64,000 bases of DNA from Defluviimonas salinarum. Lineage in GTDB: Bacteria; Pseudomonadota; Alphaproteobacteria; Rhodobacterales; Rhodobacteraceae. The position numbers and the translations under genes are program-made. Numbering within the stretch: the stretch's first letter is position 1; each line of letters starts with the position of its first letter. Below are positions 13,459-28,253 of this stretch, piece by piece. A model generated the notes under the pieces. That model did not search any database and was not told where the DNA came from. It worked only from the letters and a program-made list of their open reading frames with translations. The stretch lies in assembly GCF_026013545.1 (NCBI RefSeq), contig NZ_JAPDOG010000002.1:62001-126000 (forward strand), given 5' to 3'.

Positions 13459-14343
13459 TCACGCGCCGCCCCAGCCTTTCGCGATCCGCTCCCACGCGGT
13501 GTCGAGCGCCGGGGCGGCGGCGCCCGCGAGCCGGATCATGCGGATGTCGAGCCGCTGGTCCGGCAGCCGGTCGTCAAGCGCGACGAGCCTTCCGTCGGTG
13601 AGCGCCCCGGAGACCATCGAGCGCGGCAGCCAGGCGATGCCGATCCCGGCGAGCGCGTATTCGCAGGCGGCGAGCGTGAGCGCTGTCTCGGCCCGGCGCG
13701 CGAAGCGGATCCGCTCCGGGACCCGTGGCAGGATCGCGCGGTCCATGATCTGGCCGAGGAACACGTCGGCGGGATAGGCGATGAGCGGCCAGTCGCCCGC
13801 GGCCCCGGCGACGCCCGGTGCCGCGACCGGCAGGAACGTATCGGCCCCGAGCGTCACCGCGTCGAAGCCGCGCTCCTCGGGCAGGGCGGGCTCTCCGGGC
13901 AGCGCGTACATCACCGCGAAATCGACCTCGCCCGCGAGCAGCTTCAGCAGGCATTCGTCGCGGTTGCCCGAACGAACCCGCACCGAATGGCCGCCCTGCG
14001 CGGTGAGAAGCGCCACCAGCCGCGGCGAGACCGTGGTGGTGATCGCATGCTGGCAGGCGAGCGAGATCGCGCCGGCCCCGCCGGCGCCCGAGCGCCGGAG
14101 CGTGTCGCGGAGCCGCCTCAGGCCTGCGGCCAGCGCCCGCATCTCGGGTTCCTGCGCCCGTACCGAGGGCAAGAGCGCCACCGGCTTTCGGTTGCGGTCG
14201 AAGAGCTCGGCGCCGATGCTGTCCTCGATCGCGCGGATGCGCCGGGTGAAGGCCGATTGCGTGAGGTGGCGCGCCTCCGCCGCGCGGGCGAAGGAGCCGG
14301 TGTCGAGCACCGCGAGAAGGTCGTCGAGCCAGTCGAGCCGCAT
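13459..14343 (-). CDS. LysR-family transcriptional regulator
   Basis: A 294-residue regulator with an N-terminal winged helix-turn-helix ([20 protein letters not shown] then [19 protein letters not shown]) and a periplasmic-binding-protein-like effector domain. It is divergently transcribed from the CuyA-like lyase gene, 125 bp apart, with a good LysR box between them. It therefore probably regulates that gene in response to its substrate or a related sulfonate or amino acid. Confidence 0.92.
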
Positions 14344-14369
14344 CGGTCAAGTCTAGGCGTTGCAGGTGT

Positions 14370-14390
14370 AACTTGCAATTCGGGAAAGTT
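14370..14390. promoter_or_regulatory. LysR-type operator (T-N11-A)
   Basis: AACTT-N11-AAGTT is a symmetric repeat with the canonical T-N11-A core, located between the divergent LysR gene and the CuyA-like gene. An overlapping inverted repeat TTGCA-N9-TGCAA lies at 14360-14378. Together they look like recognition and activation half-sites for the LysR protein. An SD-like GAAGGAG precedes the ATG at 14469. Confidence 0.6.
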
Positions 14391-14468
14391 GTGACGCGAA
14401 GAACGCATTTGATGGCGGATCGTGCGCCCTGTATGTGTCGAACAGGTCAATTTGAAGGAGCCCGGCCC

Positions 14469-15488
14469 ATGCATCTCGCCCGCTTCCCGCGCCATTTCCT
14501 CGCCCATCTGCCGACGCCGCTCGAACGGCTCGACCGGCTGACGAAGGAACTCGGCGGCCCCGAAATCTGGATCAAGCGCGACGATTGCACCGGTCTTTCG
14601 ACCGGCGGCAACAAGACCCGCAAGCTCGAATTCCTGATGGCCGAGGCCGAGGCGCAGGGCGCCGAGCTGGTGATGACACAAGGTGCGACGCAGTCGAACC
14701 ACGCCCGCCAGACCGCCGCCTTCGCGGCCAAGCTCGGGATGAAGTGCCATATCCTGCTCGAGGACCGGACAGGCTCGAACGACGCCAACTACAACAACAA
14801 CGGCAACGTGCTTCTCGACCACCTGCACGGTGCGACGACCGAGAGGCGGCCCGGCGGCGGCGACATGAATGCCGAGATGGAGGCGGTGGCCGACCGGCTC
14901 CGCGCCGAGGGCAAGAAGGTCTACACGATCCCCGGCGGCGGCTCGAACGCGACCGGCGCGCTCGGCTATGTCAACTGCGCCTTCGAGATCCTGCAACAGG
15001 CCAATGCCGGCGGGCTGAAGATCGACCATATCGTCCATGCCACCGGCTCGGCCGGGACGCAGGCCGGGCTCATCACCGGCCTCAAGGCGATGAACGCGCA
15101 GATCCCGCTTCTCGGGATCGGCGTGCGCGCGCCGAAGCCGAAGCAGGAGGAGAATGTCTTCAACCTCGCCTGCGCCACCGCCGAGAAGCTCGGCTGCGCC
15201 GGGGTCGTGAAGCGCGAGGACGTGGTCGCGAACACCGACTATGTCGGCGCGGGCTACGGCATCCCGACCGAAAGCGGGCTGGAGGCGATCCGGATGTTCG
15301 CCGAACTGGAGGCGATCCTGCTTGACCCGGTCTATTCCTCGAAGGGCGCGGCGGGCTTCATCGACCTGATCCGCAGGGGCCATTTCAAGAAGGGCGAGCG
15401 GGTGGTCTTCCTCCACACCGGCGGCGCGGCGGGGCTTTTCGGCTACGACTTCGCCTTCGATTTCAAGAACCGTTGGCAGGCCGCCTGA
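14469..15488 (+). CDS. cuyA: L-cysteate sulfo-lyase / D-cysteine desulfhydrase-like PLP enzyme
   Basis: A 339-residue PLP enzyme of the ACC-deaminase/D-cysteine desulfhydrase group. The PLP lysine is Lys49 in STGGNKTRK, and the catalytic Ser76 lies in TQSNHARQ. The phosphate-binding loop GSAGTQAG is also present. To my knowledge the closest characterised relative by length and sequence is Ruegeria pomeroyi CuyA, which splits L-cysteate into pyruvate, sulfite and ammonia. D-cysteine desulfhydrase remains possible. The ATG at 14469 has a good SD sequence (GAAGGAG). The gene stands alone beside its LysR regulator; no sulfite exporter or oxidase is adjacent. Confidence 0.8.
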
Positions 15489-15502: not shown

Positions 15503-15521
15503 GGGCGGCCTCAGGCCGCCC
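15503..15521. terminator. Strong hairpin overlapping a stop codon
   Basis: The sequence GGGCGGCCT-C-AGGCCGCCC (15503-15521) is a near-perfect palindrome between the convergent cuyA-like gene and the carboxymuconolactone-decarboxylase-like gene. It includes the latter's stop codon at 15511-15513. On the plus strand it is followed by CCGTTT. A bidirectional terminator is likely. Confidence 0.65.
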
Positions 15522-15900
15522 CCGTTTCCTCCAGCACCTTCCGCGCCACGCGGAAGCATTCGAGCGCCTGCGGCACGCCGCAATAGATGCCGACGACATG
15601 GATGATGGCGCGGATCTCGTCCCTAGTGACGCCGTTGTTGATGGCGCCGCGGCAATGCACTTCCCATTCGTGCATCTTGCCGAGCGCGCCGATCATCGCG
15701 AGGTTCATCATCGAGCGCGTCTTCGGCTCGATCACATCGTCGCCCCAGCCGAAGCCCCAGCACCATGCGGTCATCGCCTCCTGGAACGGCCGCGTGAAGT
15801 CGTCGGCGGCGGCGAGGTTTTTCTCGACGTAGTCCGCGCCGAGCGTCGCCTTGCGCTGGGCGAGGCCCTTTTCGAACAGGTCGTCGTCGAATGTGCTCAT
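15511..15900 (-). CDS. Carboxymuconolactone decarboxylase-like protein
   Basis: A 129-residue alpha-helical protein of the CMD family. The typical core WEVHCRGAINNGVTRDEIRAIIH is split here around Cys and His residues, with a second conserved part VGIYCGVPQALECFR. There is no CxxC pair as in AhpD, so a peroxidase role is unlikely; the gamma-CMD type (decarboxylation of a lactone acid) or an unknown reaction is possible. It is the last gene of the minus-strand arm of the RpiR-centred catabolic island, 7 bp after the GST-like gene. Confidence 0.82.
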   Translation of the reverse strand: MSTFDDDLFEKGLAQRKATLGADYVEKNLAAADDFTRPFQEAMTAWCWGFGWGDDVIEPKTRSMMNLAMIGALGKMHEWEVHCRGAINNGVTRDEIRAIIHVVGIYCGVPQALECFRVARKVLEETGAA

Positions 15901-15907
15901 CTCGTCC

Positions 15908-16624
15908 TCATGTCTTGTGGTCCGTTTCTTCGAGCATGGCGCGCAGCGACCGCTCGATCTGTCCGCCGCAATAGTCCCGGCCCGTCCGAGCATCCTCGCG
16001 CGCGATCATCGCGGCGATCTCCGGCAAGGCCGCGATCCGCTGGGAAAGCGCGGCGACGCGGGGCGCGTTCCGGCGCAGCATCCCGCCCAGCAAGGGCAGC
16101 TTCGCGCCCATTGTGTGCCAAAGCGCGGCCGCTGCGAGGTCCGCGAGGCCCGGCGCGCCGGTTCCGAGCATCGTGCCCGCCTCGGCGGTCAGCCCGTGGC
16201 GGCGGCCGGTGTCCTCGAAGATCGCCATCCAGCGCGGCAGGCGGGTCGCGGCGAAGTCGTCCCAGTCAGCCTTTGCCCACATCGTCCTGCCGCAGTTGCA
16301 GGTGATCTCCTCCAGCACGTCGTTGGCGTCGCAGACGAGCTTGTGGGCCAAGGCCGCGCGGGCGGAGTCTTCGGGCAGAAGATCGTGCTTGCGCCCGAGA
16401 TAGAGGAGGATCGCCGGCAACTGCGACAGCCAGAGACCGGCCGCATGATCGTTGAGGAGTGGCGGGGCCATAAACGGCGTCGGCTGCTCCCCGACCGGGA
16501 GCGCCTTGAGCCGGATCAACTCCGCCGTGTCGCCCTCGTCCCACGACGCGCCGGCGTGGGCCAGCACGTAGCGCACGAAATGGCCCCGAAAGGGGAGCGG
16601 CCAGTAATAGAGCGTGTAGTCCAT
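15908..16624 (-). CDS. Glutathione S-transferase-like protein
   Basis: A 238-residue protein with an N-terminal thioredoxin-like GST domain (LYYWPLPFRGHFVRYVLAHAG, then QLPAILLYLGRK) and an all-helical C-terminal domain. The usual catalytic Ser/Cys position is not obvious. It lies 15 bp downstream of the aldehyde dehydrogenase and just upstream of the CMD-like gene. In this setting it might handle a reactive product such as formaldehyde or an unsaturated intermediate, but that is inference. Confidence 0.8.
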   Translation of the reverse strand: MDYTLYYWPLPFRGHFVRYVLAHAGASWDEGDTAELIRLKALPVGEQPTPFMAPPLLNDHAAGLWLSQLPAILLYLGRKHDLLPEDSARAALAHKLVCDANDVLEEITCNCGRTMWAKADWDDFAATRLPRWMAIFEDTGRRHGLTAEAGTMLGTGAPGLADLAAAALWHTMGAKLPLLGGMLRRNAPRVAALSQRIAALPEIAAMIAREDARTGRDYCGGQIERSLRAMLEETDHKT

Positions 16625-16639
16625 CGCCGCCTCCCGGCG

Positions 16640-18088
16640 TTACCGCAGCCTGATCGCGATGTTCTTGGTCTGGACGTAGTTCCACAAGGCCTCGCGCCCC
16701 TTTTCGCGACCGTAGCCGGACTTGCCGTAGCCGCCGAAGGGGGTTTCCACGCCGCCCGCGTACCATTCGTTGACGAAGACCTGGCCGGCGCGGAGCTTCC
16801 GCGCTGCGCGTGTGGCGCGGTCGAGGTCGCGGGTGAAGACGCCGCCGACGAGGCCGTAATCGGTGGCGTTGGCGATGGCGATCGCCTCCTCGTCGCTGCG
16901 GAACTTCAGCACCGAGAGCACCGGGCCGAAGACCTCGTTCCGCGCGATGGCCATGTCGGGGGTGACCTGCAGCACCGTCGGTTCGAGGAAGGCGCCGGGG
17001 CGGTTGAGCTTGCGGCCGCCGGTGACGACGGTCGCGCCCTCGGCCTCGGCGGCGCGGACCATGCCCTCGGCGCGGTCGCGCTGGGCCTCGGAGACCATCG
17101 CGCCCATCGTGGGGCCGAACTCGGGCTGGTCGATGCCGGGGCCCACCTTCAGCGAGGCCGCGAGCCCGGCGATGCGGTCGACGAGTTCGTCATGGATGCG
17201 CTCGGAGGCGATCACCCGGCTCATCGCCGAGCAGACCTGGCCGGCATTGTAGAAGATGCCCCAGCGGACATCCGACAGGAAGGCATCGAGGTCGGCGTCG
17301 TCATGGACGATGGCGGCGGACTTGCCGCCGAGCTCGAGAACGCAAGGCACGACGTTCTTCGCCGCGGCGGTGGCGATGGCGATGCCGGTCGGGACCGAGC
17401 CGGTGAAGACGATCTGGTTGACGCCGGGATGGGCCGAAAGTGCCGCGCCCGCCTCGGCCCCGAGGCCGCAGAGGACGTTGACGGCGCCTTTCGGCAGGCC
17501 CGCCGCCTCGGCGGCGCGGGCGATAAAGGCGTTCGTCAGGGGCGTAAGTTCGGGCGTCTTGATCACGCAGGCATTACCGGTGGCGAGTGCTGCCGAGAGC
17601 GACCGCGCGGTCATCTCCAGGGGATAGTTCCACGGGATGATCTGCGCCGAGACGCCGTAGGGCTCATGGGTGGTGAAGTCGAAATAGCCCGCGCCGAGCG
17701 GGACCGAGCGGCCCTCCACCGTCTCGGCCTGGTTGCCGTAATACTCGAAGTAGCGCGCCGCACCGCGAACCTCGATCTCCGCCTCCCATAGCGGCTTGCC
17801 CTGTTCGAGCGTCAGGAGCCGGGCAATTTCGCTGATATGGTCGAGGAGGTAGCGCCCCATCGCCTGCACCATCCGCCCGCGTTCGACGGGCCGGAGGTCG
17901 GAGAGCGCGCCGCTCTCATGGCAGGCCCGCGCCGCCGCCACGGCACGGTCGACATCCGCGACGTCGGCCAGCGCCTGTTCGGCGAGGGGCGCGCCGGTGC
18001 CGGGGTCGGTGACGCTGATGCGTCCCGCGCCGCCGTCCACCCAGCCACCGTCGATCCAGTTCTGCCAGTAGGCCGCGACGTCACGCAT
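16640..18088 (-). CDS. NAD(P)-dependent aldehyde dehydrogenase
   Basis: A 482-residue member of the betaine-aldehyde/aldehyde dehydrogenase superfamily, oxidising an aldehyde to its acid. The catalytic residues are visible: Asn153 in IPWNYP, the general base Glu252 in LELGGK, and the nucleophile Cys286 in NAGQVCSAM. FGGYGKSGYGREKG near the C-terminus is typical. Its start overlaps the end of the Rieske gene by 8 bp, so it is likely to oxidise an aldehyde produced in the same pathway. Confidence 0.93.
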   Translation of the reverse strand: MRDVAAYWQNWIDGGWVDGGAGRISVTDPGTGAPLAEQALADVADVDRAVAAARACHESGALSDLRPVERGRMVQAMGRYLLDHISEIARLLTLEQGKPLWEAEIEVRGAARYFEYYGNQAETVEGRSVPLGAGYFDFTTHEPYGVSAQIIPWNYPLEMTARSLSAALATGNACVIKTPELTPLTNAFIARAAEAAGLPKGAVNVLCGLGAEAGAALSAHPGVNQIVFTGSVPTGIAIATAAAKNVVPCVLELGGKSAAIVHDDADLDAFLSDVRWGIFYNAGQVCSAMSRVIASERIHDELVDRIAGLAASLKVGPGIDQPEFGPTMGAMVSEAQRDRAEGMVRAAEAEGATVVTGGRKLNRPGAFLEPTVLQVTPDMAIARNEVFGPVLSVLKFRSDEEAIAIANATDYGLVGGVFTRDLDRATRAARKLRAGQVFVNEWYAGGVETPFGGYGKSGYGREKGREALWNYVQTKNIAIRLR

Positions 18089-19169
18089 CGACGGCCTCGC
18101 GCATCCACTGCTGGAGGGTCTGGATGGAGTGTTCCGAGTTGAGACCGCAATCGGGATCGAGCACCAGCGGCCCCGGCCGGTAGCCGCGGCTCTTGAGCCC
18201 CTTCGAAACGCTCTCCACGAGCCGGATATCCTCCTCGACCGTCGTCGCCCGGTCCTGGATCGCGAGCCGCCGGATCACGTCGCTGTCGACGCCGCCGGGC
18301 GTGTACCAGCCGCGCCAGACGGTGCAGTGGTCCACGTCATGGGCCCGCCAGTGGTAGGTATTCAGAACGTTGCCCGGATAGACCTGGAACGAGAACATAG
18401 GCCAGAAGAAGAACGACCGGTACTCGCCGCCGTGCGGCACCGAGGTGTCGATCGCATAGGTCATCTTGGAAAGGTCCTGGCACTCGGTCGTGTGCCGGAG
18501 GACATAGCCCTTGTTCATCGGCTGGATGTCGTAGGTCTCGGGCCGGATCACGCCGGTCGCGAAGGTCGGGTGGTTCAGCGAGCAGTGGTAGCACTCGGAA
18601 TAGTTCTCGACCGAGACCTTCCAGTTGCACTTCTCGGGGATCTCGACCCATTCCAGGGGTTCGAGTTCGGCGATGTTCGGAACATAGTCGCCAAGCTCCT
18701 CGCGGACGCCGGGATACCATTCGTCCATCGGTGCCGCGTTGTCGTCGAGGTTGACGAAGATGAAGCCGTGGAAGGTCTCGGTCCTGACCGAGGTTAGGCA
18801 GATCTTCTTGCGGTCGAAGCCCGGCACCGAATTGACGTTCGGCCCGGCGCGGAGCTCGCCCGACAGCTCGTAGGTCCAGGCGTGGTAGGGGCAAACGACG
18901 ACGCGGGTCGTGCCGGAGCCCTCGACCATCTGGTGCGCCCGGTGCTGGCAGACATTGTAGAAGGTCCGAAGCTCACCGTTGCGGCCGCGGATGCAGAAGA
19001 GGCTTTCGCCCGCAATCTCGAAGGTTAAGTAGTCGCCGGGATTGCGGACCTGGCTTTCATGCCCGGCGAACTGCCATGTGCGGGCGAGAAGGCCGCGCAT
19101 CTCGTTCTCGAAGATCGCGGGGTCGGTATAGTAACGGGCGTCGAGCGAATGGACGAGTGGAGCGTTCAT
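18081..19169 (-). CDS. Rieske non-heme iron oxygenase, quaternary-ammonium type
   Basis: A 362-residue oxygenase alpha subunit. The Rieske [2Fe-2S] ligands are Cys74/His76 (CQH) and Cys93/His96 (CPYH). The mononuclear iron site has His195 and His200 in ECYHCSLNH, with Asp at about 320. The residue bridging neighbouring subunits is Glu192 (SECYHC) where most ring-hydroxylating oxygenases have Asp. That Glu is a hallmark of quaternary-amine oxygenases such as CntA (carnitine) and GbcA (glycine betaine). N-demethylation of a betaine is the best prediction. The ferredoxin-reductase partner is not encoded nearby. Its start overlaps the rpiR stop. Confidence 0.88.
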   Translation of the reverse strand: MNAPLVHSLDARYYTDPAIFENEMRGLLARTWQFAGHESQVRNPGDYLTFEIAGESLFCIRGRNGELRTFYNVCQHRAHQMVEGSGTTRVVVCPYHAWTYELSGELRAGPNVNSVPGFDRKKICLTSVRTETFHGFIFVNLDDNAAPMDEWYPGVREELGDYVPNIAELEPLEWVEIPEKCNWKVSVENYSECYHCSLNHPTFATGVIRPETYDIQPMNKGYVLRHTTECQDLSKMTYAIDTSVPHGGEYRSFFFWPMFSFQVYPGNVLNTYHWRAHDVDHCTVWRGWYTPGGVDSDVIRRLAIQDRATTVEEDIRLVESVSKGLKSRGYRPGPLVLDPDCGLNSEHSIQTLQQWMREAVDA

Positions 19170-20053
19170 TCGGGATCCTCCAGATAGAGACCGAGTTGAT
19201 GGCGGCGTTTGTGAAACTTCTCGACCCGCTCGACGATCTCGGGGCTCGCCACCGCGATCACGAAACTCAGGAGCGTCTCCAATAGCGCGATCGTGGAGAC
19301 CGACGAGGGGAAGAACTGCGGCGTGTCGACCGACACGGTGAAGCGGTGCTGGGCGGCCATGATGATCGGGCTCGCCGGGCTGTCGGAGATGGCGATCACA
19401 GTCATCCCTTGTTCGCGGGCGATCTTCACCGTCTCCACGACCTCGCGGCGGTAGGGATGGCAGGTCATCGCGATCAGAACGTCACGACTGTCCGCCCAGG
19501 CGATGTCGTCGGCGGCATCCGAGCCCGCCTGCGGGATCGCGTGGAACTCCACCATGCCGGTCGAGGCGAGGTAAGTGAAGTTGCGCGCGTTCGCGTTGTT
19601 GACGCCGACACCGAGCGTATAGACCCGGCGCGAGGCCCAGATCGCCTCGGCAGCCGCTTTGAGCGCATCGGAGTCGATCTTGGCGAAGGTTTCCTCGATG
19701 TTGCGGATCGCTGCGCCCACCATCTCGGCATAGAGCCCACCGAGCGCGCCCTGTTTCGAGACGTCTTGCAGCCAGCGTGCCCGGTCGGGAAAGCCCGCCG
19801 GCCCGCTGCGAATCGCCTCGCGGAAGGCGGCGCGGAAATCCTCGTAGCCGTCGAAGCCGACCTGGCGGGCCATGCGCACGAAGGTGTTGGGCTTCACATT
19901 GGCGAATTCGGCGATCTCGCGCACGGTCGAGACGCCCACGCAATGCGGATTCTCAAGTACGTAGCGCGCCGCCTTCTGCGCCTCAGGGGTCAGCGTCTCG
20001 AACTCCTCGGAGAGGCGGTTCAGGACGATTGTTGATACATCTGTGCCATTCAT
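19166..20053 (-). CDS. RpiR-family transcriptional regulator
   Basis: A 295-residue regulator with an N-terminal HTH_6 domain (TPEAQKAARYVLENP, then VSTVREIAEFANVKPNTFVRMAR) and a C-terminal SIS sugar-phosphate-isomerase-like effector domain (VYTLGVGVNNANARNF, DVLIAMTCHPYRREVVE). I prefer the ATG at 20053 (MNGTDVSTIVLNRL) to one 18 codons upstream because it matches the usual RpiR N-terminus. It is the first gene of the leftward arm and faces the rightward catabolic operon across about 70 bp, so it probably controls both. Confidence 0.9.
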   Translation of the reverse strand: MNGTDVSTIVLNRLSEEFETLTPEAQKAARYVLENPHCVGVSTVREIAEFANVKPNTFVRMARQVGFDGYEDFRAAFREAIRSGPAGFPDRARWLQDVSKQGALGGLYAEMVGAAIRNIEETFAKIDSDALKAAAEAIWASRRVYTLGVGVNNANARNFTYLASTGMVEFHAIPQAGSDAADDIAWADSRDVLIAMTCHPYRREVVETVKIAREQGMTVIAISDSPASPIIMAAQHRFTVSVDTPQFFPSSVSTIALLETLLSFVIAVASPEIVERVEKFHKRRHQLGLYLEDPE

Positions 20054-20122
20054 GATTGACGATGGTATAGTTGTCCCATTAGCCTGTCGAGAGGAAACGC
20101 GACTCATCTCGGGAAAATTTCA
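20054..20122. promoter_or_regulatory. Divergent promoter/operator region of the catabolic island
   Basis: This 69-bp gap separates the rpiR start from the flavoprotein start and must carry both promoters. It is less GC-rich than its neighbours around GGTATAGTTGTCCCATTAG. Weak dyads are ATGG-N10-CCAT (20062-20079) and CGAGA-N14-TCTCG (20088-20111). Either could be an RpiR site, but no repeat is strong enough to name. Confidence 0.45.
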
Positions 20123-22582
20123 ATGTCGGAACGCGCTCTGCCCTCCACTGCCCGCGTCGTCATCATTGGCGGCGGGATCATGGGCTGCGGCCTCGCCTAT
20201 CACCTCGCGCATGAGGGCTGGACGGATGTCGTTCTCCTGGAAAAGGCGGAGCTGACCTCGGGCTCCACCTGGCATGCGGCGGGGCAGATCACGCATTCGA
20301 CGTCGAGCTTCGCACTCGGCAAATGCGTGGGCTACAACATCGACCTCTATTCGAAGGTTCTGGAGGCGGAGACCGGGCAGTCGGTGACCTGGCATGGCTG
20401 CGGCTCGCTGCGCCTTGCCTATACCGACGATGAGCTCGACTGGTTGCACCAGACGATCTCGGTCGGCAAGGGGCTTGGCTTCCCGATGGAGATCGTCGGG
20501 CCGGAGCGGATCCGCGAACTGCATCCGTTCTACAATCTCGACGGGGTGAAGGCGGCGCTGCACACGCCCGACGACGGCCATGTCGACCCGGCAGGCGCCG
20601 CCTTCGCGCTCGCCAAGGGCGCGCGCCAGCTCGGCGTGAAGGTGATCCGCCGCTGCCGGGCGACGAACGTGACCAAGCAGGAAAACGGCGAGTGGCTGGT
20701 CGAGACCGAAGAGGGCAACATCATCTGCGAGCACGTCGTCAACGCCGGCGGAACCTATGCGCGGCAGGTGGCGCTCTGGTCGGGCTACGACCTGCCGGCG
20801 ACCTCGATGACGCACCACTACCTCATCACCGACACGGTGCCGGATTTCCAGGCGCTCGACAAGGAGCTCCCCGTTGTCCGCGATGACCGGCTCGTCTCGG
20901 GCTATATAAGGATGGAGCAGAAGAAGGGCCTGATCGGCATCTACGAGAAGGCCAATCCGAACACCGTCTGGGAGGATCACTGCCCCTGGGAGGCGGAGAA
21001 CGAGCTCTTCGAGCCGGACTATGACCGGATCATGCCGTGGCTCGAGAACGCGATGGACCGGATGCCGATCCTCGCCGATCTTGGCATCACCCGCGAAGTT
21101 CACGGCGCGATCTCGCATCCGCCCGACGGCAACCCGATGATCGGTCCGGCGCCGGGCCTGAAGAACTACTGGTGCTGCTGCGGCACCCAGATCGGCATCG
21201 GCTGGGGCCCGGGGCTGACGCGGGAACTGGCGCGCTGGATGGTCCATGGTGCCGCCGACATCAACATGCGCGAGTTCGACCCGCGCCGGTTCGGTCCCTA
21301 TGCCGACCAGGGCTACCAGATCACAAAGGCCAAGGAGGACTATCTCCTGCGCCACGAGATCCCGTTCCCGTTCTTCAACCGTCTCGACGCGCGGCCGGTG
21401 AAGCCTTCCGCACTCTATGACGACCTGAAGGCCGAAGGCGCGGTCTTCGAAGAAGTCTACGGCCACGAACGCCCGCGCTGGTTCGCGCCGGAAGGCACCG
21501 AGGCGAAGGACATCTACGGCTTCCGCCGTACGAAGCTCCATGACATCGTCGGCGCCGAGGTCCGCGCGGTGCGGGAGAAGGCGGGGATCATGGACATCTC
21601 GGCCTTCTCGAAGGTCGAGGTCTCGGGCCCGGACGCGGCGGCCTTCCTCGACCGGCTGGTGCCGAACAAGCTGCCCGCCGTGGGGCGGATCGGCCTCACC
21701 CATCTTCTGAACGACAACGGCCGGATCGAGCTGGAGACGACCGTCGTGCGGCTGGCCGAAGACCGGCTTTACCTCGTCTGTGCGGCTTTCTTCGAACAGC
21801 GGCTGGTCGATTACCTGACCTTCGCGACGGCCGGAGAGAACGTCACCATCACCAACCGCTCGACCGACTGGGGCGCGCTGGCGCTGAACGGCCCTAGAGC
21901 GCGCGATATCCTGGGGGCTTGCACCGGGGCGGACCTCGCCAATGCCGGCTTCAAGTGGATGACGGCGCAGGAGATCGCGGTCGGCGGCCACAGGCTCTGG
22001 GCTTTCCGCATGTCCTATGCGGGCGAGCTCGGCTGGGAGTTCCATGGGGAGCGCGCTGCGATCCTCGGCGCGTTCCGGGCGCTGAAGGCGGCGGGCAAGG
22101 CGCATGGGATGGTCAACTACGGCTCCTTCGCGATGAACGCGATGCGGATGGAGAAGGGCTTCAAGGGGGCTGGGGAACTCACGAACGAGGTGACGCTGCC
22201 CGAGGCCGACGTGATGCGCTTCGTGCGGCTCGACAAGGAGTTCCGCGGCAAGGCGGCGACCGAGGCCGCGGCGGCGAAGCCGCTCCGCTGGGTCTGCGCC
22301 TATCTGGAACTCGCCGATGACGGCCGCTCGGACGGCAATGGCGGCGAGGCGGTGCTCTCGGAGGGCCGCCAGGTCGGCACCGTCAGCTCCATCGCCTTCG
22401 GCCACGGCACCGGCAAGCTCCTCGCCTTCGCCTATGTGAAGGCGGACCATGCCAAGCCGGGCACCGAGCTCGAGGTCGTGATCATGGGCGAGCCGCGCGC
22501 GGCGAAAGTCCTCGGCGCGCCGGTCTACGATCCCGAAAACCTGAAACCCCGAACCGAAGCCCGGGAGGTGGCGGAAGCATGA
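20123..22582 (+). CDS. Dimethylglycine-dehydrogenase-like flavoprotein with GcvT domain
   Basis: An 819-residue two-part oxidoreductase. Residues 1-400 are a DAO-type FAD domain with the dinucleotide motif GGGIMG (16-21). His51 in GSTWHAAG aligns with the covalent flavin-linking histidine of dimethylglycine and sarcosine dehydrogenases. Residues from about 440 onward are a GcvT-like folate-binding region (GIMDISAFSKVEVSGPDA, then MSYAGELGWE). Such enzymes oxidatively remove an N-methyl group and pass the carbon to tetrahydrofolate. With the Rieske oxygenase across the promoter it would do the second demethylation. It is the first gene of the rightward operon; the next gene overlaps by ATGA. 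Confidence 0.9.
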   Translation: MSERALPSTARVVIIGGGIMGCGLAYHLAHEGWTDVVLLEKAELTSGSTWHAAGQITHSTSSFALGKCVGYNIDLYSKVLEAETGQSVTWHGCGSLRLAYTDDELDWLHQTISVGKGLGFPMEIVGPERIRELHPFYNLDGVKAALHTPDDGHVDPAGAAFALAKGARQLGVKVIRRCRATNVTKQENGEWLVETEEGNIICEHVVNAGGTYARQVALWSGYDLPATSMTHHYLITDTVPDFQALDKELPVVRDDRLVSGYIRMEQKKGLIGIYEKANPNTVWEDHCPWEAENELFEPDYDRIMPWLENAMDRMPILADLGITREVHGAISHPPDGNPMIGPAPGLKNYWCCCGTQIGIGWGPGLTRELARWMVHGAADINMREFDPRRFGPYADQGYQITKAKEDYLLRHEIPFPFFNRLDARPVKPSALYDDLKAEGAVFEEVYGHERPRWFAPEGTEAKDIYGFRRTKLHDIVGAEVRAVREKAGIMDISAFSKVEVSGPDAAAFLDRLVPNKLPAVGRIGLTHLLNDNGRIELETTVVRLAEDRLYLVCAAFFEQRLVDYLTFATAGENVTITNRSTDWGALALNGPRARDILGACTGADLANAGFKWMTAQEIAVGGHRLWAFRMSYAGELGWEFHGERAAILGAFRALKAAGKAHGMVNYGSFAMNAMRMEKGFKGAGELTNEVTLPEADVMRFVRLDKEFRGKAATEAAAAKPLRWVCAYLELADDGRSDGNGGEAVLSEGRQVGTVSSIAFGHGTGKLLAFAYVKADHAKPGTELEVVIMGEPRAAKVLGAPVYDPENLKPRTEAREVAEA

Positions 22583-23652
22583 CGAAGATGAAGGCGATGG
22601 TGCTGACGGGCCATGGCGGGCTCGACAAGTACGAATGGCACGAGGACTGGCCGCGGCCGGAGCCGGGGCCGATGGAGGTGCTGATCAGGGTCGGCGCCTG
22701 CGGCCTCAACAATACCGACGTCAACACCCGCTCGGGCTGGTATTCCAAGGCGGTGAGCGAGGCGACGACCGGCGGCGCCTATGCGGCGGTCGGCGAGGCG
22801 GACCCGACCTGGGGCGGTTCGCCGATCACCTTCCCGCGCATCCAGGGCGCCGACGCGGTGGGCGAAGTCGTCGCCGTGGGAGAGGGCGCGGACCCGGCGC
22901 TGGTGGGCAAGAGGGTCATGACCGACGGCTGGCTCCGCGACTGGTCCGAGCCGATGAACATGGACAAGGCCGGGTATTTCGGTTCGGAACGCGACGGCGG
23001 CTTCGCCGAGTACGCCGTGACGGACATGCGCAACGTTGCTGTCGTCGATAGCGGCCTCAGCGATGCGGAACTCGCGACCTTCTCGTGCTCCTACACCACC
23101 GCCGAGGGGATGCTCGCGCGCGCCAATGTGACGGCAGGTGATACCGTGCTCGTCCCCGGCGCCTCGGGCGGGGTCGGCGGCGCGCTGGTCCAGCTCGCCA
23201 AGAGACGCGGCGCGCGGGTCATCGCGATGGCCTCGGAGTCCAAGCACGCAGAGGTCGCGAAGCTCGGCCCCGACCTGATCCTGCCCCGCGCACCGGAGGA
23301 CCTGCGCGCGGCCTTGGGCGACGAGAAGGTTACCGTCGTCGCCGATATCGTCGGCGGGCCGTACTGGCCGACGCTCATCGACATCCTCGAACGCGGCGGG
23401 CGCTACACCTGTTCGGGCGCGATCGCCGGGCCGATGGTGACGTTGGACCTCCGCACCTTCTACCTGCGCGACCTGACCTTCACCGGCTCGACCGTGACCC
23501 CGCCGCATGTCTTCCGCGACGTCGTGGGCTACATCGAGCGCGGCGAGATCAGGCCGGTCCTCGCCGCGACCTATCCCTTGAAGAACCTCCGCGAGGCGCA
23601 GCAGGCCTTCATCGACAAGAAGCACACCGGCAACATCGTGGTCACCCCGTGA
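22579..23652 (+). CDS. MDR-family (zinc-type alcohol dehydrogenase/quinone reductase-like) oxidoreductase
   Basis: A 357-residue medium-chain dehydrogenase/reductase. The N-terminal GroES-like domain contains IQGADAVGEVVAVGEG. The Rossmann motif is GASGGVGGALVQLAKRRGA. An inserted segment (KRVMTDGWLRDWSEPMNMDKA) takes the place of the structural-zinc loop, so a zinc-free NADPH-dependent reductase is as likely as an alcohol dehydrogenase. It overlaps both its neighbours by 4 bp, which places it firmly in the catabolic operon. Confidence 0.85.
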   Translation: MTKMKAMVLTGHGGLDKYEWHEDWPRPEPGPMEVLIRVGACGLNNTDVNTRSGWYSKAVSEATTGGAYAAVGEADPTWGGSPITFPRIQGADAVGEVVAVGEGADPALVGKRVMTDGWLRDWSEPMNMDKAGYFGSERDGGFAEYAVTDMRNVAVVDSGLSDAELATFSCSYTTAEGMLARANVTAGDTVLVPGASGGVGGALVQLAKRRGARVIAMASESKHAEVAKLGPDLILPRAPEDLRAALGDEKVTVVADIVGGPYWPTLIDILERGGRYTCSGAIAGPMVTLDLRTFYLRDLTFTGSTVTPPHVFRDVVGYIERGEIRPVLAATYPLKNLREAQQAFIDKKHTGNIVVTP

Positions 23653-24755
23653 AGATCACCCGCATCCGCGTCTACAAGACCGATCTGCCTTACGTCGGCG
23701 GAACCTATGCCTGGGGTGCGGGCAACGCGATCACCGTGGCCAGGGCCTCGGTCGTGGTGATCGACACCGATGCGGGGCTTCAGGGCTCAGGCGAGTTCAC
23801 GCCCTGCGGCGAGAACTACATGGTCGCCCATTCCGAGGGCGTCGAGGCGGCGGCGCGGCTGATGGCCCCGGCGCTCCTTGGCGAGGACCCGAGGCAGGTC
23901 GCGCGGATCGAGCGGATCATGGACCATGTGATCCAGGACCACGGCTATGCCAAGGCGCCCTTCGACGCGGCGTGCTGGGATATCCTCGGCCAGGCCACCG
24001 GCCAGCCGGTCTGGATGCTGATGGGCGGCAAGCTGACTGAAGCCGCGCCGATGTACCGGGTGGCGCCCCAGAAGGCGGTGGACGAGACCGTCGCCGAGAT
24101 GGAGGTCTACCGCGCCCAAGGGTATCGGCAGTTCCAGATCAAGGTGGGCGCCGACTGGGTCACCGACATCGACCGCATCCGCGCGACCGTGCCGCTTCTG
24201 AAACCGGGCGAGAAGGCGATGGCCGATGCCAACCAGGGCTGGCGCGTCGACAATGCGATCCGGGTGGCGCGCGCGACCCGCGATCTCGACTTCATCCTCG
24301 AACAGCCCTGCCGGACCTACGAGGAATGCCAGCAGGTTCGCCGCGTGGCCGAACAGCCGATGAAGCTCGACGAATGCGTGACCGGGATGGCGGCGGCGCA
24401 GCGCATTGTCGCCGACCGGGGGGCGGAGATCTGCTGTCTCAAGGTCTCCAACCTCGGCGGTCTGTCGAAGGCGAAGCGGGTGCGCGATTTCCTCATCGAC
24501 AACCGTATTCCGGTGGTGAGCGAGGACACCTGGGGCGGCGAGATCACGAGCGCCGTGGTCGCCCATTTTGCCGCCTCCACGCCGGAGGAGTACCTCCAGA
24601 ACACCACCGACCTGATGAACTACAACACCCGCTCGACTGGGCGGGGCGGGCCGACCACGCGGGATGGCCGACTTATCGCCCCGGACGCGCCGGGGCTTGG
24701 TGTAACGCCGGATTTCGCCAGCCTCGGCGCACCGGTCGCGGAGTATGCGGGATGA
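23649..24755 (+). CDS. Enolase-superfamily protein, racemase/epimerase type (first of three)
   Basis: A 368-residue mandelate-racemase/muconate-lactonizing enzyme homologue with the two-domain enolase fold. Metal ligands are Asp193 (DANQG), Glu218 (LEQPC) and Asp241 (KLDEC). The acid/base pair is Lys165 (FQIKVG) and Lys265 (CLKVSNLGG), the 1,1-proton-transfer layout of 4-hydroxyproline betaine 2-epimerase (HpbD). The related cis-3-hydroxyproline dehydratases share it. The start codon is GTG and overlaps the preceding stop (GTGA). The substrate is unknown; the context suggests an N-methylated amino acid. Confidence 0.9.
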   Translation: MKITRIRVYKTDLPYVGGTYAWGAGNAITVARASVVVIDTDAGLQGSGEFTPCGENYMVAHSEGVEAAARLMAPALLGEDPRQVARIERIMDHVIQDHGYAKAPFDAACWDILGQATGQPVWMLMGGKLTEAAPMYRVAPQKAVDETVAEMEVYRAQGYRQFQIKVGADWVTDIDRIRATVPLLKPGEKAMADANQGWRVDNAIRVARATRDLDFILEQPCRTYEECQQVRRVAEQPMKLDECVTGMAAAQRIVADRGAEICCLKVSNLGGLSKAKRVRDFLIDNRIPVVSEDTWGGEITSAVVAHFAASTPEEYLQNTTDLMNYNTRSTGRGGPTTRDGRLIAPDAPGLGVTPDFASLGAPVAEYAG

Positions 24756-25861
24756 AGATCACGCGCATCATGGTCTGGTCGCTCGACCTGCCGCTTGTCC
24801 AGCCCTACTGGCTCTCGGGCGGGCGGCTGAAGTTCGAGCGTCTCGATTCCACCTTCGTCCGACTCGACACCGACGAGGGCGTTTCGGGCTGGGGCGAGGG
24901 CTGCCCCTGGGGCACGACCTACCTGCCTGCGCATGGGCCCGGCATCCGCGCCGGCATCGCGACGCTCGCCCCCGCGATCCTCGGCCGCGATCCGCGCAGC
25001 TTGCGCACGCTCAACGAGGCGATGGACACCCGGCTTCCCGGCCATCTCTACGTCAAGTCGGCGATCGACATGGCGGCCTGGGACATTCTCGGACAGACCG
25101 CCGGAATGCCGCTCTGGCAGCTCTTCGGCGGCGATCGCGCCGAGCCGGTCGCGGTCAATTCATCGATCTCGACAGGGACACCGGAAGAGATGATCGCGCT
25201 CATCCGCAGCGCCAGCCAGAAGGGCTACCGGGTCCATTCCGCCAAACTTGGCGGCCACGACATCGGCGCCGACATTGCCCGGATCGAGGCGATCTCCGCC
25301 GCCCTGCCGAGGGCTGAGAAGGTCACCTACGACATCAACCGCGCCTGGACGCCCGCCGTCGCGGTGCAGGTGCTGAACTCGGTCACCGCGCGCGACTGGG
25401 TGGAGCAGCCCTGCGAGACGCTCGACCAATGCGCCCATGTGGCGGGCCGCGTCGCCAACCCGATCATGCTCGACGAATGCCTGCACACGTTCCAGGACCA
25501 TCTGGAGGCATGGAAGCGCGGCGCCTGCGAGGGCGTGAAGGTCAAGCCGAACCGGGTGGGCGGGCTGACGAAGGCGCTGCAGATCCGCGATTTCGGGGTC
25601 TCGGTCGGCTGGCAGATGCATATCGAGGACCTCGGCGGCTCGGCCTTGGCCGACACCGCCGCGATCCATCTGGCGGCCTCGACGCCCGAGGCCAACCGGC
25701 TCGCGAGCTGGCTTTGCCACTATCACCTCTCCGTCGATCCGGTGCCGGGGCAGGGTGCGCGCAACGACGGCGGCTTCGCGACACCCCCTTCGGCGCCGGG
25801 GCTCGGCGTCACCCCCGAAGTCGAGCGGCTGGGCGACCCGGTCGCGGTTTACGAGGTCTGA
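24752..25861 (+). CDS. Enolase-superfamily protein, racemase/epimerase type (second of three)
   Basis: A 369-residue paralogue of its two neighbours. Metal ligands are Asp194 (YDINRAW), Glu218 (VEQPC) and Asp241 (MLDEC). Catalytic lysines are Lys165 (HSAKLGG) and Lys265 (VKVKPNRVGG), with an extra Lys263 two residues earlier. The residues around the active site (SAKLGG, DINRAW) differ from the other two copies, so the substrate or reaction probably differs. The start overlaps the preceding stop as ATGA, and 3 bp separate it from the third copy. Confidence 0.9.
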   Translation: MKITRIMVWSLDLPLVQPYWLSGGRLKFERLDSTFVRLDTDEGVSGWGEGCPWGTTYLPAHGPGIRAGIATLAPAILGRDPRSLRTLNEAMDTRLPGHLYVKSAIDMAAWDILGQTAGMPLWQLFGGDRAEPVAVNSSISTGTPEEMIALIRSASQKGYRVHSAKLGGHDIGADIARIEAISAALPRAEKVTYDINRAWTPAVAVQVLNSVTARDWVEQPCETLDQCAHVAGRVANPIMLDECLHTFQDHLEAWKRGACEGVKVKPNRVGGLTKALQIRDFGVSVGWQMHIEDLGGSALADTAAIHLAASTPEANRLASWLCHYHLSVDPVPGQGARNDGGFATPPSAPGLGVTPEVERLGDPVAVYEV

Positions 25862-25864
25862 ACC

Positions 25865-26968
25865 ATGAAGATCACCCGGTTGACACTCTGGGACGTGCCG
25901 CTGACGAGCCACGTCGCCTATCACATGGCGGGCGGCAAGACCTGCGACACCGTCACCTCGGTCGTGCTGCGCGTCGACACCGACGCCGGCGTCGAGGGCT
26001 GGGGCGAGGTCTGCCCGATCCCGCACTACCTGCCCGCCTATGCCGAGGGCGTGCGCCCGGCGCTGGAATACCTCGCGCCGGTGCTGATCGGCGCCGATCC
26101 GGTCGGACCGGAGGCCGTCATGAGCCGGGCCGATGCCTGGCTGCAGGGCCATCCCTATGCCAAGTCCGCACTCGACCTCGCGCTCTGGGACATCACCGGC
26201 AAGGTGGCCGGGCTGCCGCTTCACGCGCTTCTCGGCGGGCGGCAGATGGCCGACATGCCGCTTTATCACTCGATCACCTGCATCGCGCCGGAGGAGATGG
26301 CACGGATCGCCAGGGAAGCGCAGCGGGAGGGGATCACCCAGTTCCAGGTCAAGCTCGGCGCCGATGGCGACTGGCAAGCCGATGTGGCGCGGCTGAGGAT
26401 GGTGCGCGAGGCGGTGGGCGAGGGGCCGCTCGTTTACGGTGACTGGAACTGCGGCGCCACACGGCTCGACGCGACACGGGTGGGCCGCTCGGTCGCCGGC
26501 ATGGACGTGATGCTCGAGCAGCCCTGCGCGACGCTGGAGGAATGCGCCGCCGTGCGCGCCGCGACGGGTCTGCCGATGAAGATCGACGAGAACGGGCATG
26601 ACACCGCCTCGCTCCTGAAGGCGTATGAACTCGGCTGCATGGACGCCGTCGCGCTGAAGCTCTCGAAATTCGGCGGGCTCAGCCCGATGCGGCGGGCGCG
26701 CGACCTCTGCCTGCATCTCGGCGCGAAGATGTGCGTCGAGGATACCTGGGGTTCGGACGTCACCACCTCGGCACTCCTCCATCTTGCCGCCGCGACGCCC
26801 GAGCGGATGCTTCTGAACACCTGCGATCTCTCGGGCTATGTCGGCCCGCGCCTCGACCGCGAGGCGCCGGTGCGCAAGGCAGGGCGTATCGCGCCGCCGG
26901 AAGGGCCGGGGCTCGGCGTCGCGCCGGACAGTGACATTCTCGGCCAGCCCATGGCCGTCATCGACTAG
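25865..26968 (+). CDS. Enolase-superfamily protein, racemase/epimerase type (third of three)
   Basis: A 367-residue paralogue. Metal ligands are Asp193 (GDWNCG), Glu218 (LEQPC) and Asp241 (KIDENG). Catalytic lysines are Lys163 (FQVKLGAD) and Lys265 (ALKLSKFGG). The N-terminal capping loop (TSHVAYHMAGGKTCDT), which sets substrate specificity in this superfamily, differs from both other copies. All three genes share the N-terminus MKITR and the same spacing of catalytic residues, so they arose by duplication and diverged. Confidence 0.9.
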   Translation: MKITRLTLWDVPLTSHVAYHMAGGKTCDTVTSVVLRVDTDAGVEGWGEVCPIPHYLPAYAEGVRPALEYLAPVLIGADPVGPEAVMSRADAWLQGHPYAKSALDLALWDITGKVAGLPLHALLGGRQMADMPLYHSITCIAPEEMARIAREAQREGITQFQVKLGADGDWQADVARLRMVREAVGEGPLVYGDWNCGATRLDATRVGRSVAGMDVMLEQPCATLEECAAVRAATGLPMKIDENGHDTASLLKAYELGCMDAVALKLSKFGGLSPMRRARDLCLHLGAKMCVEDTWGSDVTTSALLHLAAATPERMLLNTCDLSGYVGPRLDREAPVRKAGRIAPPEGPGLGVAPDSDILGQPMAVID

Positions 26969-26978
26969 GAGAGTCCCG

Positions 26979-28253
26979 ATGCTCGACAAGACCCCCATGC
27001 AGGCTCTCGCCGACCGTGCCCGCGCGGTGTTGCCGGCCGGCGGTTTCGGCAATTTCGACCCCTCGGTCTTCATCCGCGAGGGCAAGGGTTCCCGCGTCTG
27101 GGACGAGGACGGGCGCGAATATGTCGACTACCTGATCGGTTCCGGCCCGATGCTTCTCGGTCACGGCCATCCCGAGGTGCTGGAGGTGGTGGCGGAGCAG
27201 CTGCCGAAGGGCATGACCTTCTTCGCCAACAACGCCCCCGGCGTCGAACTGGCCGAGGAGATCTGCCGCGCGGTGCCCTGCGCCGAGCAGGTGCGGTTTC
27301 TGTCCTCGGGCGGCGAGGCGGACATGTACGCGATGCGGCTCGCCCGCGCCCATACGGGGCGCGACAAGATCCTGAAGTTCGAGGGCGGCTATCACGGCAT
27401 GTCCGCCGAGGCGCAGATGAGCCTCGCGCCGACGCGGCTGGTGAACTTCCCGCAAGCCGTGCCCGACAGCGCCGGGATCCCCGAGGCGGTCCGGGCCGAG
27501 ATGCTGATCGCGCCGTTCAACGATCCCGAGTATCTCGAAAGCCTGCTGAAGGAGCATGGGGGCGACGTGGCGGGCATCATCGTCGAGCCGCTGCAGCGGA
27601 TCATCCCGCCCGCGCCGGGGTTCCTGCAGGCGGTGCGCGAGCTTTGCGACCGCTACGGCATCGTCCTCATCTTCGACGAGGTCGTGACCGGGTTCCGCTT
27701 CGCCTATGGCGGCGCGCAGGAGGCTTACGGTGTCACGCCCGACCTCTGCACGCTCGGCAAGATCATCGGCGGCGGCTTCCCCCTGGCGGCGGTGGCGGGC
27801 CGCAAGGACATCATGGATCATTTCGACAAGGCCATCGTCGGCGCCGACAAGTGGCTGATGATGCTCGGCACGCTCTCGGGCAACCCGGTCGCCGCCGTGG
27901 CGGGCTTGAAGACGATGGAGATCCTGCGCCGCGACGGCGCCTTTGACACGCTCCGCGCTCATGGCGAGCGGTTGCAGGCGATGCTCGCCCGCCATCTCGA
28001 CGCGGCCGGGATCGCGCACCGGATCGTCGGCCATCCGACGCTCTTTGACGTGGTCTTCACCGACCGGGAGGTGCGGACCTACCGCGACGTGCTGGCGGCG
28101 GATGCGAAGAAGAACGCCGCCTTCAACGCGGTCCTGCGCGCGAACGGGGTCTTCAAGTCGCCCGGCAAGGTCTATCCCAGCTTGGCGCTGACCGAGGCCG
28201 ATTTCGAGCTGACCGAGGCCGCAATCGAAAAGGCCGCCGCCGCGATCGCCTGA
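26979..28253 (+). CDS. Class-III PLP aminotransferase (glutamate-1-semialdehyde aminomutase-like)
   Basis: A 424-residue fold-type I PLP enzyme. The pyridoxal-binding residues are Asp233 in IFDEVVTGFR and the Schiff-base lysine Lys261 in CTLGKIIGGGFP. GGEADMYAMRLARAHTG and FEGGYHG are typical of the HemL/omega-aminotransferase branch. It is unlikely to be the tetrapyrrole enzyme itself, since it sits at the end of the catabolic operon and has a divergent start (MLDKTPMQALADRARAVLPAG). It could deaminate the fully demethylated amine or move an amino group. It converges with the DUF3775 gene, 3 bp apart. Confidence 0.9.
   Translation: MLDKTPMQALADRARAVLPAGGFGNFDPSVFIREGKGSRVWDEDGREYVDYLIGSGPMLLGHGHPEVLEVVAEQLPKGMTFFANNAPGVELAEEICRAVPCAEQVRFLSSGGEADMYAMRLARAHTGRDKILKFEGGYHGMSAEAQMSLAPTRLVNFPQAVPDSAGIPEAVRAEMLIAPFNDPEYLESLLKEHGGDVAGIIVEPLQRIIPPAPGFLQAVRELCDRYGIVLIFDEVVTGFRFAYGGAQEAYGVTPDLCTLGKIIGGGFPLAAVAGRKDIMDHFDKAIVGADKWLMMLGTLSGNPVAAVAGLKTMEILRRDGAFDTLRAHGERLQAMLARHLDAAGIAHRIVGHPTLFDVVFTDREVRTYRDVLAADAKKNAAFNAVLRANGVFKSPGKVYPSLALTEADFELTEAAIEKAAAAIA

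Follow-up and report, generated by a model that had tools for sequence, protein, structure and literature searches.

A conserved RpiR-centred gene island in Defluviimonas salinarum, predicted to demethylate a betaine, and its DddQ-bearing relatives

What compound is consumed by a locus that gathers a Rieske oxygenase, a flavoprotein of the folate-linked demethylating type, three racemase-type enolase-superfamily enzymes and an aminotransferase around a single RpiR regulator? The question is raised by positions 15511-28253 of a 64,000-nucleotide stretch of Defluviimonas salinarum (contig NZ_JAPDOG010000002.1), hereafter the window, which a sequence-only reading had described as an island for the stepwise demethylation of a chiral betaine. 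We find that the island is a real, widely shared and conserved gene set, and that it most likely demethylates a betaine, a salt-protecting compound, and then consumes the remainder. It would be a variant of betaine catabolism, not new in kind. A literature search of open-licence papers returned no description of the island as a betaine pathway, which, given that limit, is weak evidence of novelty. What is new is that a known lyase of dimethylsulfoniopropionate (DMSP), DddQ, is nested in this probable N-betaine island in many relatives.

The island and its conserved core

The island consists of 11 genes in two divergent arms flanking the RpiR regulator, each gene being an open reading frame at its place. 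The minus arm carries CMD, GST, the aldehyde dehydrogenase (ALDH), the Rieske oxygenase (RO) and RpiR, and the plus arm carries the dimethylglycine-dehydrogenase-like flavoprotein (DMGDH), the MDR oxidoreductase, the enolase-superfamily enzymes E1, E2 and E3, and the class-III aminotransferase (AT):

15511-15900, minus strand: CMD, carboxymuconolactone-decarboxylase family (PF02627, 70.6 bits)
15908-16624, minus strand: GST, Atu5508 family, a local addition (NF052468, 342.9 bits, cut-off 245)
16640-18088, minus strand: ALDH, accessory (PF00171, 519 bits)
18081-19169, minus strand: RO alpha subunit, predicted betaine type, with Glu E192 at the bridging position; core (CntA 6Y8J, 217 bits)
19166-20053, minus strand: RpiR/MurR-family regulator; core (PF01418, PF01380; reading frame open to 20107)
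20051-20088, no strand: conserved block, probable promoter/operator (shared 9-mer and column conservation)
20123-22582, plus strand: DMGDH-like flavoprotein with GcvT folate domain; core (DAO 217.3 bits, GCV_T 216.8 bits)
22579-23652, plus strand: MDR oxidoreductase, accessory, tied to E2 (PF00107/PF08240)
23649-24755, plus strand: E1, MLE-type enolase-superfamily enzyme with C3LHypD-like loops, accessory (2RDX, 701 bits)
24752-25861, plus strand: E2, MLE-type enolase-superfamily enzyme with Trp at the HpbD Trp position, accessory (2QDD, 658 bits)
25865-26968, plus strand: E3, MLE-type enolase-superfamily enzyme, near-core (4MGG, 286 bits)
26979-28253, plus strand: AT, class III, glutamate-1-semialdehyde-aminomutase (GSAM) type; core (NF000818, 384.6 bits; 5I92, 318.5 bits)

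Pfam backs 10 of the 11 genes (ten were scanned), with CMD, GST_C_8, Aldedh, Rieske plus Ring_hydroxyl_A, and HTH_6 plus SIS on the minus arm, and DAO, FAO_M, GCV_T and GCV_T_C, ADH_N plus ADH_zinc_N, and three MR_MLE pairs on the plus arm; AT was scored with NCBIfam instead. The gene set and families given by the sequence-only reading are thus confirmed. Its statement that most genes overlap by 4-8 bp holds for five of the nine within-arm junctions (four of 4 bp and one of 8 bp); at the remaining four, the genes are separated by 3, 7, 10 and 15 bp. For AT, the start at 26979 is the more likely one. CMD scores 122.7 bits against the PcaC model TIGR02425, under its cut-off of 155.7.

The island extends well beyond this genome. 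Of 248 genomes in the family, 45 (own included) have an RO with at least 63% identity; the next match stands at 52% and the others listed at no more than 39%, so that orthologues are clearly separate from paralogues. Within the genus, 7 of 22 genomes (own included) carry RO at 73% or more, and a class-level scan of 385 genomes gave 10 at 60% or more (own included) and 12 at 41-57%. The best 80 of 587 loci in a scan of named genomes come from Ruegeria, Roseovarius, Shimia, Roseibium, Nitratireductor, Mesorhizobium and others, the nearest among these being Defluviimonas sp. WL0050 (RO 96%). Plasmid copies exist too, with RO at 60-80% identity in 4 of 72,556 plasmid records. A typical alphaproteobacterial copy (L170) stands under a Firmicute label in a record titled Oceanobacillus sp. 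HTM 045, probably through contamination.

Gene neighbours were counted with RO as bait in 80 judged loci of 156, after dropping 39 with short flanks, 21 with RO identity below 60%, 11 duplicates and 5 without a Rieske call; genes were called by our own hexamer-score script, which may miss some. DMGDH lies beside RO in 77 of the 80, RpiR in 74, E3 in 70, CMD in 63 and AT in 62, the last being a lower bound because flanks of about 10 kb clip the far end of long right arms. MDR follows with 58, E2 with 55, DddQ with 36, E1 with 34 and ALDH with 32, then a formaldehyde-activating GFA-family gene (19), a DsbA-like gene (6), a BCCT betaine transporter (3) and GST (1). The recurrence of the same neighbours in these loci and in more distant Alphaproteobacteria places the locus beyond chance. 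GST, which had been counted as a pathway member, was dropped on its single occurrence.

The observed gene content, conservation and module structure define a core of Rieske oxygenase, RpiR, DMGDH and aminotransferase. Three distant loci (L118, L120 and L126) keep these genes, with no enolase within the stretch fetched around the core, enolases elsewhere in those genomes not having been sought; none is seen in L119 either, a locus at the end of a contig. Of the 80 judged loci, 77 have one or more enolase-type enzymes, the exceptions being L077, L112 and L204, and to treat these enzymes as plain add-ons was rejected as too strong for close relatives. The same genus spans a range of states, from RO-RpiR-DMGDH-E3-AT (L228, and L229 with ALDH) and a form with MDR and no enolase at all (L231) to MDR-E1-E2-E3 as in the window (L230) and MDR-DddQ-E1-E2-E3 (L232). 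The window is therefore best described as the core plus E3 plus an optional MDR-E1-E2 module lacking DddQ.

Associations between accessory genes were assessed by Fisher tests, which ignore relatedness, and by an independent-pairs test on a quick RO tree, which allows for it. E2 is present in 54 of the 58 judged loci with MDR, and on the RO tree the two change, on average, the same way in 7.5 and opposite ways in 0 of 8 independent pairs (median p 0.008). AspRac and ALDH show no association (p 0.62). Two further sets recur. Arylmalonate-decarboxylase-like and sulfotransferase-like genes occur in 24 of the 80 loci each, always paired, on the Rieske arm and with E2 in 24 of 24 (e.g. L157:12218-13783). 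A small protein of about 94 residues, cupin-like by eye, lies between E1 and E2 at L036:16811-17095 and occurs in 13 other loci.

Predicted demethylation of a betaine

We propose that the island is a modular pathway for consuming a quaternary-ammonium carboxylate (betaine) by oxidative and then folate-linked N-demethylation, transamination and aldehyde oxidation, a scheme that we regard as probable, with some reserve; each reaction, the reaction order and the substrate are predictions. RO would hydroxylate one N-methyl group, so that formaldehyde is released and a tertiary amine is left. The DMGDH-like flavoprotein would oxidise a further N-methyl group, passing it to folate as methylenetetrahydrofolate and its electrons to electron-transfer flavoprotein (ETF). 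Once the last methyl group is gone, the GSAM-type aminotransferase would take the amine nitrogen, and ALDH, where present, would oxidise the aldehyde formed by transamination. The pairing of AT with ALDH suggests that the nitrogen sits on a primary carbon, as it does in beta-alanine betaine and gamma-butyrobetaine. E1, E2 and E3 together with MDR would broaden the substrate range, the enolase-type enzymes abstracting the proton alpha to the carboxylate and so epimerising or dehydrating stereoisomers or hydroxylated analogues before or between demethylations; in relatives, DddQ would join this optional module. RpiR would sense the substrate or a product at the shared divergent promoter. The island points to a route of nitrogen-osmolyte use that is so far uncharacterised. 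A homarine route was considered as well, and nothing fitting it was found.

The sequence-only reading had called RO a betaine-type enzyme with a bridging glutamate, and comparison with solved structures bears this out. RO matches CntA over its full length (217 bits), followed by the uncharacterised 3N0Q (120.6 bits) and stachydrine demethylase, Stc2 (119.9 and 119.6 bits), which 3N0Q equals by sequence; named ring dioxygenases reach at most 108.5 bits, below both. In a fold search with the predicted RO structure (mean pLDDT 70.5, low at residues 193-219 and 329-362), 13 CntA chains rank first (TM about 0.73, aligned at 30-32% identity), four chains of stachydrine demethylase come next, and 3N0Q follows together with ring dioxygenases. 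E192 (in NYSECYH), H195, H200 and D314 are invariant in 18 aligned relatives, and a glutamate at the bridging position, here E192, is what we take to be the mark of betaine oxygenases. Neither outcome that the sequence-only reading had named as a refutation occurred: RO does not cluster in an unrelated substrate class, and its neighbourhood is conserved in relatives. RO is accordingly a predicted quaternary-ammonium oxygenase of the CntA/Stc2 class, nearer to CntA than to Stc2.

The carnitine monooxygenase CntA/YeaW is of the same betaine-type class, but its partners differ. It has its own reductase and, to our knowledge, no DMGDH/aminotransferase core, and it cleaves the C-N bond, freeing trimethylamine instead of demethylating. 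The main rival explanation is that RO works like CntA: it would hydroxylate the carbon next to the nitrogen and free trimethylamine, ALDH would oxidise the resulting aldehyde, and DMGDH and AT would serve a second substrate. CntA is indeed the closest solved relative by sequence and predicted fold, and ALDH directly follows RO in the window and is present in 32 of the 80 judged loci. DMGDH, however, lies beside RO in more than twice as many loci (77 against 32), the formaldehyde-type GFA gene recurs in 19, and inspection of the clusters by eye, with no dedicated search, revealed no gene for trimethylamine oxidation. We consider a CntA-like cleavage unlikely.

The partner enzymes fit the demethylation scheme. 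The best solved relatives of DMGDH are dimethylglycine dehydrogenases (507-513 bits; 4PAB 512.7, 5L46), and its order of DAO, FAO_M, GCV_T and GCV_T_C is that of the dimethylglycine dehydrogenase family, which upholds the proposal of a folate-type partner. AT falls under the cut-offs of both GSAM models (NF000818, 384.6 against 398; the other, 360.5 against 527.3). Four of the five divergent aminotransferases scanned are of another class-III type (PRK06062), which fits transamination better than a mutase reaction. Some copies carry the redox and uptake partners that the scheme requires: one on a Mesorhizobium plasmid has genes for both ETF subunits (alpha and beta), for an FAD-dependent oxidoreductase and for an ABC transporter, one on a Roseovarius plasmid has an ABC transporter directly after AT, and in a Nitratireductor copy, L190, a flavin reductase (Pyr_redox_2 plus Reductase_C) adjoins the aminotransferase.

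The resemblance of DMGDH to true dimethylglycine dehydrogenases could also point to an alternative glycine-betaine route, in which the Rieske enzyme gives dimethylglycine, DMGDH gives sarcosine, and the remaining genes are passengers. One copy, in R. pomeroyi SZCCDBG043, does have four-subunit sarcosine-oxidase-like genes (by eye) directly after CMD (L197:11663-16715), but no sarcosine-oxidase-like family appears among the families recurring in at least four loci. RO scores 162.7 bits against the GbcA model NF058607, far from its cut-off of 670 and over residues 7-205 only, and the aminotransferase is core. Such a route is very improbable in our view.

The enolase-superfamily enzymes were compared as a set of 187 cluster enzymes (three from the window) and four solved ones, taking the four commonest motif patterns per group. 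The catalytic lysines and metal ligands are kept throughout, with single exceptions, and in the window E1-E3 have both lysines and the ligands, as HpbD does. The loops differ. E1 reads EDTWGG and TDLMNY and E3 EDTWGS and CDLSGY, and their groups mostly have EDTWG or ECTWG loops with Thr or Cys followed by Asp at the position of the HpbD-structure Trp. That Trp, presumably W320, which would face the ammonium group, is found in E2 only (LASWLCHYH), the residue being Thr in E1, Cys in E3 and Thr in 4MGG. We take 2PMQ/4E8G to be HpbD and 4MGG to be C3LHypD (cis-3-hydroxyproline dehydratase). E1 and E3 share their loop pattern with C3LHypD, and its model NF043002 is the best NCBIfam model for all three enzymes, but each stays under the cut-off of 500 (407, 309.5 and 352.1). 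A quick 67-row tree separates E1, E3 and two groups of E2 as lineages of their own. The island also gives context for 2RDX and 2QDD, solved structures close to E1 and E2 whose entries bear family names only.

The Labrenzia enzyme LhpJ both epimerises and dehydrates (PMC5144071). On this dual activity and the loop patterns, E1-E3 may be epimerases or dehydratases. The earlier proposal that the substrate is epimerised gains from the presence of at least one racemase-type enzyme in nearly all judged loci, and loses from the three exceptions, the distant cores and the same-genus L231, all of which lack one, so some forms of the island can do without epimerisation. Epimerisation as the first step is a supposition, as the E1 and E3 loops are hydroxyproline-dehydratase-like, unlike HpbD, and the HpbD tryptophan occurs in E2 only. 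The chirality of the substrate and the number of exactly two demethylations are likewise suppositions of the sequence-only reading.

In the hydroxyproline- and proline-betaine pathway of HpbD and Stc2, an enolase-superfamily enzyme, a Rieske enzyme and a flavin demethylase likewise act on a betaine, and the enzyme logic of the window is the same. A pathway of this very type is nonetheless extremely improbable here. E1-E3 belong to the same enolase-superfamily subgroup as the HpbD structures, and stachydrine demethylase comes second to CntA in the fold search. Yet the HpbD pair sits on its own branch (length 1.07, support 100, the tree being rooted there by choice), its DDAWGG and AWLAQPY motifs are missing from E1 and E3, and the window has aminotransferase, ALDH and CMD in place of proline catabolism, with no proline-catabolism-like family seen by eye among the printed recurring unlabelled families.

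The demethylation scheme is backed by the enolase-free cores (L118, L120, L126 and the same-genus L231) and by the joint changes of MDR with E2 and of DddQ with E1. Several points weigh against it. The chemistry of CntA, the nearest solved Rieske enzyme, is one. The aminotransferase is ill-suited to a simple glycine-betaine route, ALDH occurs in only 32 of the 80 judged loci, and CMD, for all its frequency, has no role in the scheme. The near-constant presence of an enolase-type enzyme in close loci means that it may be essential there, not optional. That DMGDH carries out more than one demethylation is an assumption, and the part of the flanks covered around the window cluster contains no recognised gene for a reductase, ETF or a transporter.

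DddQ in the islands of relatives

DddQ has been well studied as an enzyme that produces dimethyl sulfide (DMS), a climate-active gas. By sequence, the island cupin of relatives is DddQ: the copy in R. pomeroyi SZCCDBG043 scores 434.8 bits against the solved DMSP lyase 5CU1, and one of R. lacuscaerulensis 284.5 bits against DddQ 4LA2. Of the 36 judged loci that carry it, 31 have it directly after MDR, and 25 have E1 next. The dddQ clusters of Ruegeria pomeroyi and Roseovarius nubinhibens show the same gene order round Rieske, RpiR, DMGDH, E3 and aminotransferase as the window, with DddQ inside (loci L197 and L144). Contrary to the sequence-only reading, which could name no matching operon, the set therefore has a known counterpart, and the window island is a DddQ-free form of the roseobacter dddQ cluster: no cupin gene lies between MDR and E1, which overlap by 4 bp at its would-be site. 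Flanking gene order and the linked MDR are shared as well; PMC3338564 notes that an MDR gene of non-acuI type is linked to dddQ in R. pomeroyi DSS-3 and to dddQ1 and dddQ2 in R. nubinhibens. The published dddQ-cluster passages available to us do not describe the Rieske/DMGDH/aminotransferase core. As no MDR is labelled in L197, this locus may differ from the arrangement in strain DSS-3.

DddQ presence requires 19 changes on the RO tree. Its link is with E1: in 11 independent pairs differing in DddQ, E1 changes, on average, the same way in 6.1 and the opposite way in 0.1 (median p 0.031). The Fisher tests also connect DddQ with MDR (p 0.005) and E2 (p 7e-5), but the independent-pairs test gives significance to neither (median p 0.25 for MDR, 0.125 for E2). 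No association was found with ALDH (Fisher p 0.65, independent pairs median p 1) or AspRac (p 0.051; 0.625).

One explanation of these clusters is that the island is mainly a sulfonium locus for DMSP or DMSOP, in which the GcvT-bearing flavoprotein and the Rieske enzyme act on sulfur-methyl compounds and DddQ is the hallmark. DddQ of the solved kind does sit in such clusters. Moreover, according to PMC5395565, dddQ mutants make 97% (R. pomeroyi) and 20% (R. nubinhibens) less DMS from DMSP and DMSP induces dddQ, results that also speak against a non-DMSP role of the enzyme. On the other side, 44 of the 80 loci and the window island have no DddQ, RO is nearest to N-betaine enzymes, the aminotransferase has no role on DMSP, and the dddQ-linked MDR gene of R. 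nubinhibens did not restore acrylate resistance in an E. coli yhdH mutant (PMC3338564). We hold a mainly sulfonium function to be quite improbable.

If the N-betaine scheme is kept, the nesting of DddQ raises the question of its real purpose. We speculate, as a rather doubtful proposal, that DddQ is by origin an optional member of the N-betaine island tied to E1 and not a stand-alone DMSP lyase. Its natural substrates would be 3-onio-propionates of the beta-alanine-betaine type and their alpha-substituted relatives, DMSP and DMSOP being the sulfur analogues; DddQ and E1 would share alpha-proton removal, and DMS production would be a side or later use. One DddQ has a reported Km for DMSP of 22 mM (PMC5395565), and in E. 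coli the majority of the DddQ enzymes examined showed higher activity on DMSOP than on DMSP when both were supplied (PMC10686828). If DddQ belongs to an N-betaine demethylation island that occurs without it as well, its native substrate could be tested directly with a few compounds and gene deletions.

The genome of the window has three DMSP_lyase (PF16867) matches, all on other contigs. One, a long DddQ-like cupin, belongs to a second cluster at L132:720-14623, where its neighbours are a pair of Rieske-like genes, genes for a GcvT-like protein and a class-III aminotransferase and, by eye, an ABC transporter. Here, too, a cupin of the DMSP_lyase type is found together with Rieske, GcvT and aminotransferase genes. 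At L133:7116-13036 of the same genome, a cupin resembling DddQ (44% to the reference set) lies in an ABC-transporter-like operon (by eye).

The divergent promoter and the surroundings

The RpiR reading frame is open to 20107, but a start at 20053 is more likely because of a conserved block upstream, and leaves a divergent gap of 69 bp. The 9-mer CATGATTGA is present in 57 of 71 upstream regions, and the block at 20051-20088 is probably an operator or promoter at the RpiR/DMGDH start, judging from this conservation. Positions 20051-20053 within it are the RpiR start codon, and the left flank (20033-20053) is RpiR coding, so the non-coding evidence is limited to 20054-20088. The block was found through shared 9-mers and not through the palindrome search, in which no perfect repeat occurred in more than 7 of the 71 regions (shuffle maximum 2). 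In L230 and L232, of the same genus, RpiR is only 48-50% identical while RO is 85-91% identical, and on this difference RpiR seems to have been exchanged.

The scanned flanking genes of the window are those of an ordinary chromosome, UvrC, MutL and PurH among them. Just left of the island, at 13459-15488, lie CuyA (D-cysteate sulfo-lyase; NF052482, 554.5 bits, cut-off 450) and a divergent LysR; both were dropped as island members, CuyA, though in the query set, being labelled in no other printed locus. On a Ruegeria plasmid (L219:14276-24694) a phosphonate C-P lyase operon adjoins the island, whose AT is 26% identical to that of the window. Phenylacetate-degradation-like genes (by eye) adjoin it at L035:3083-8757 and in seven other loci.

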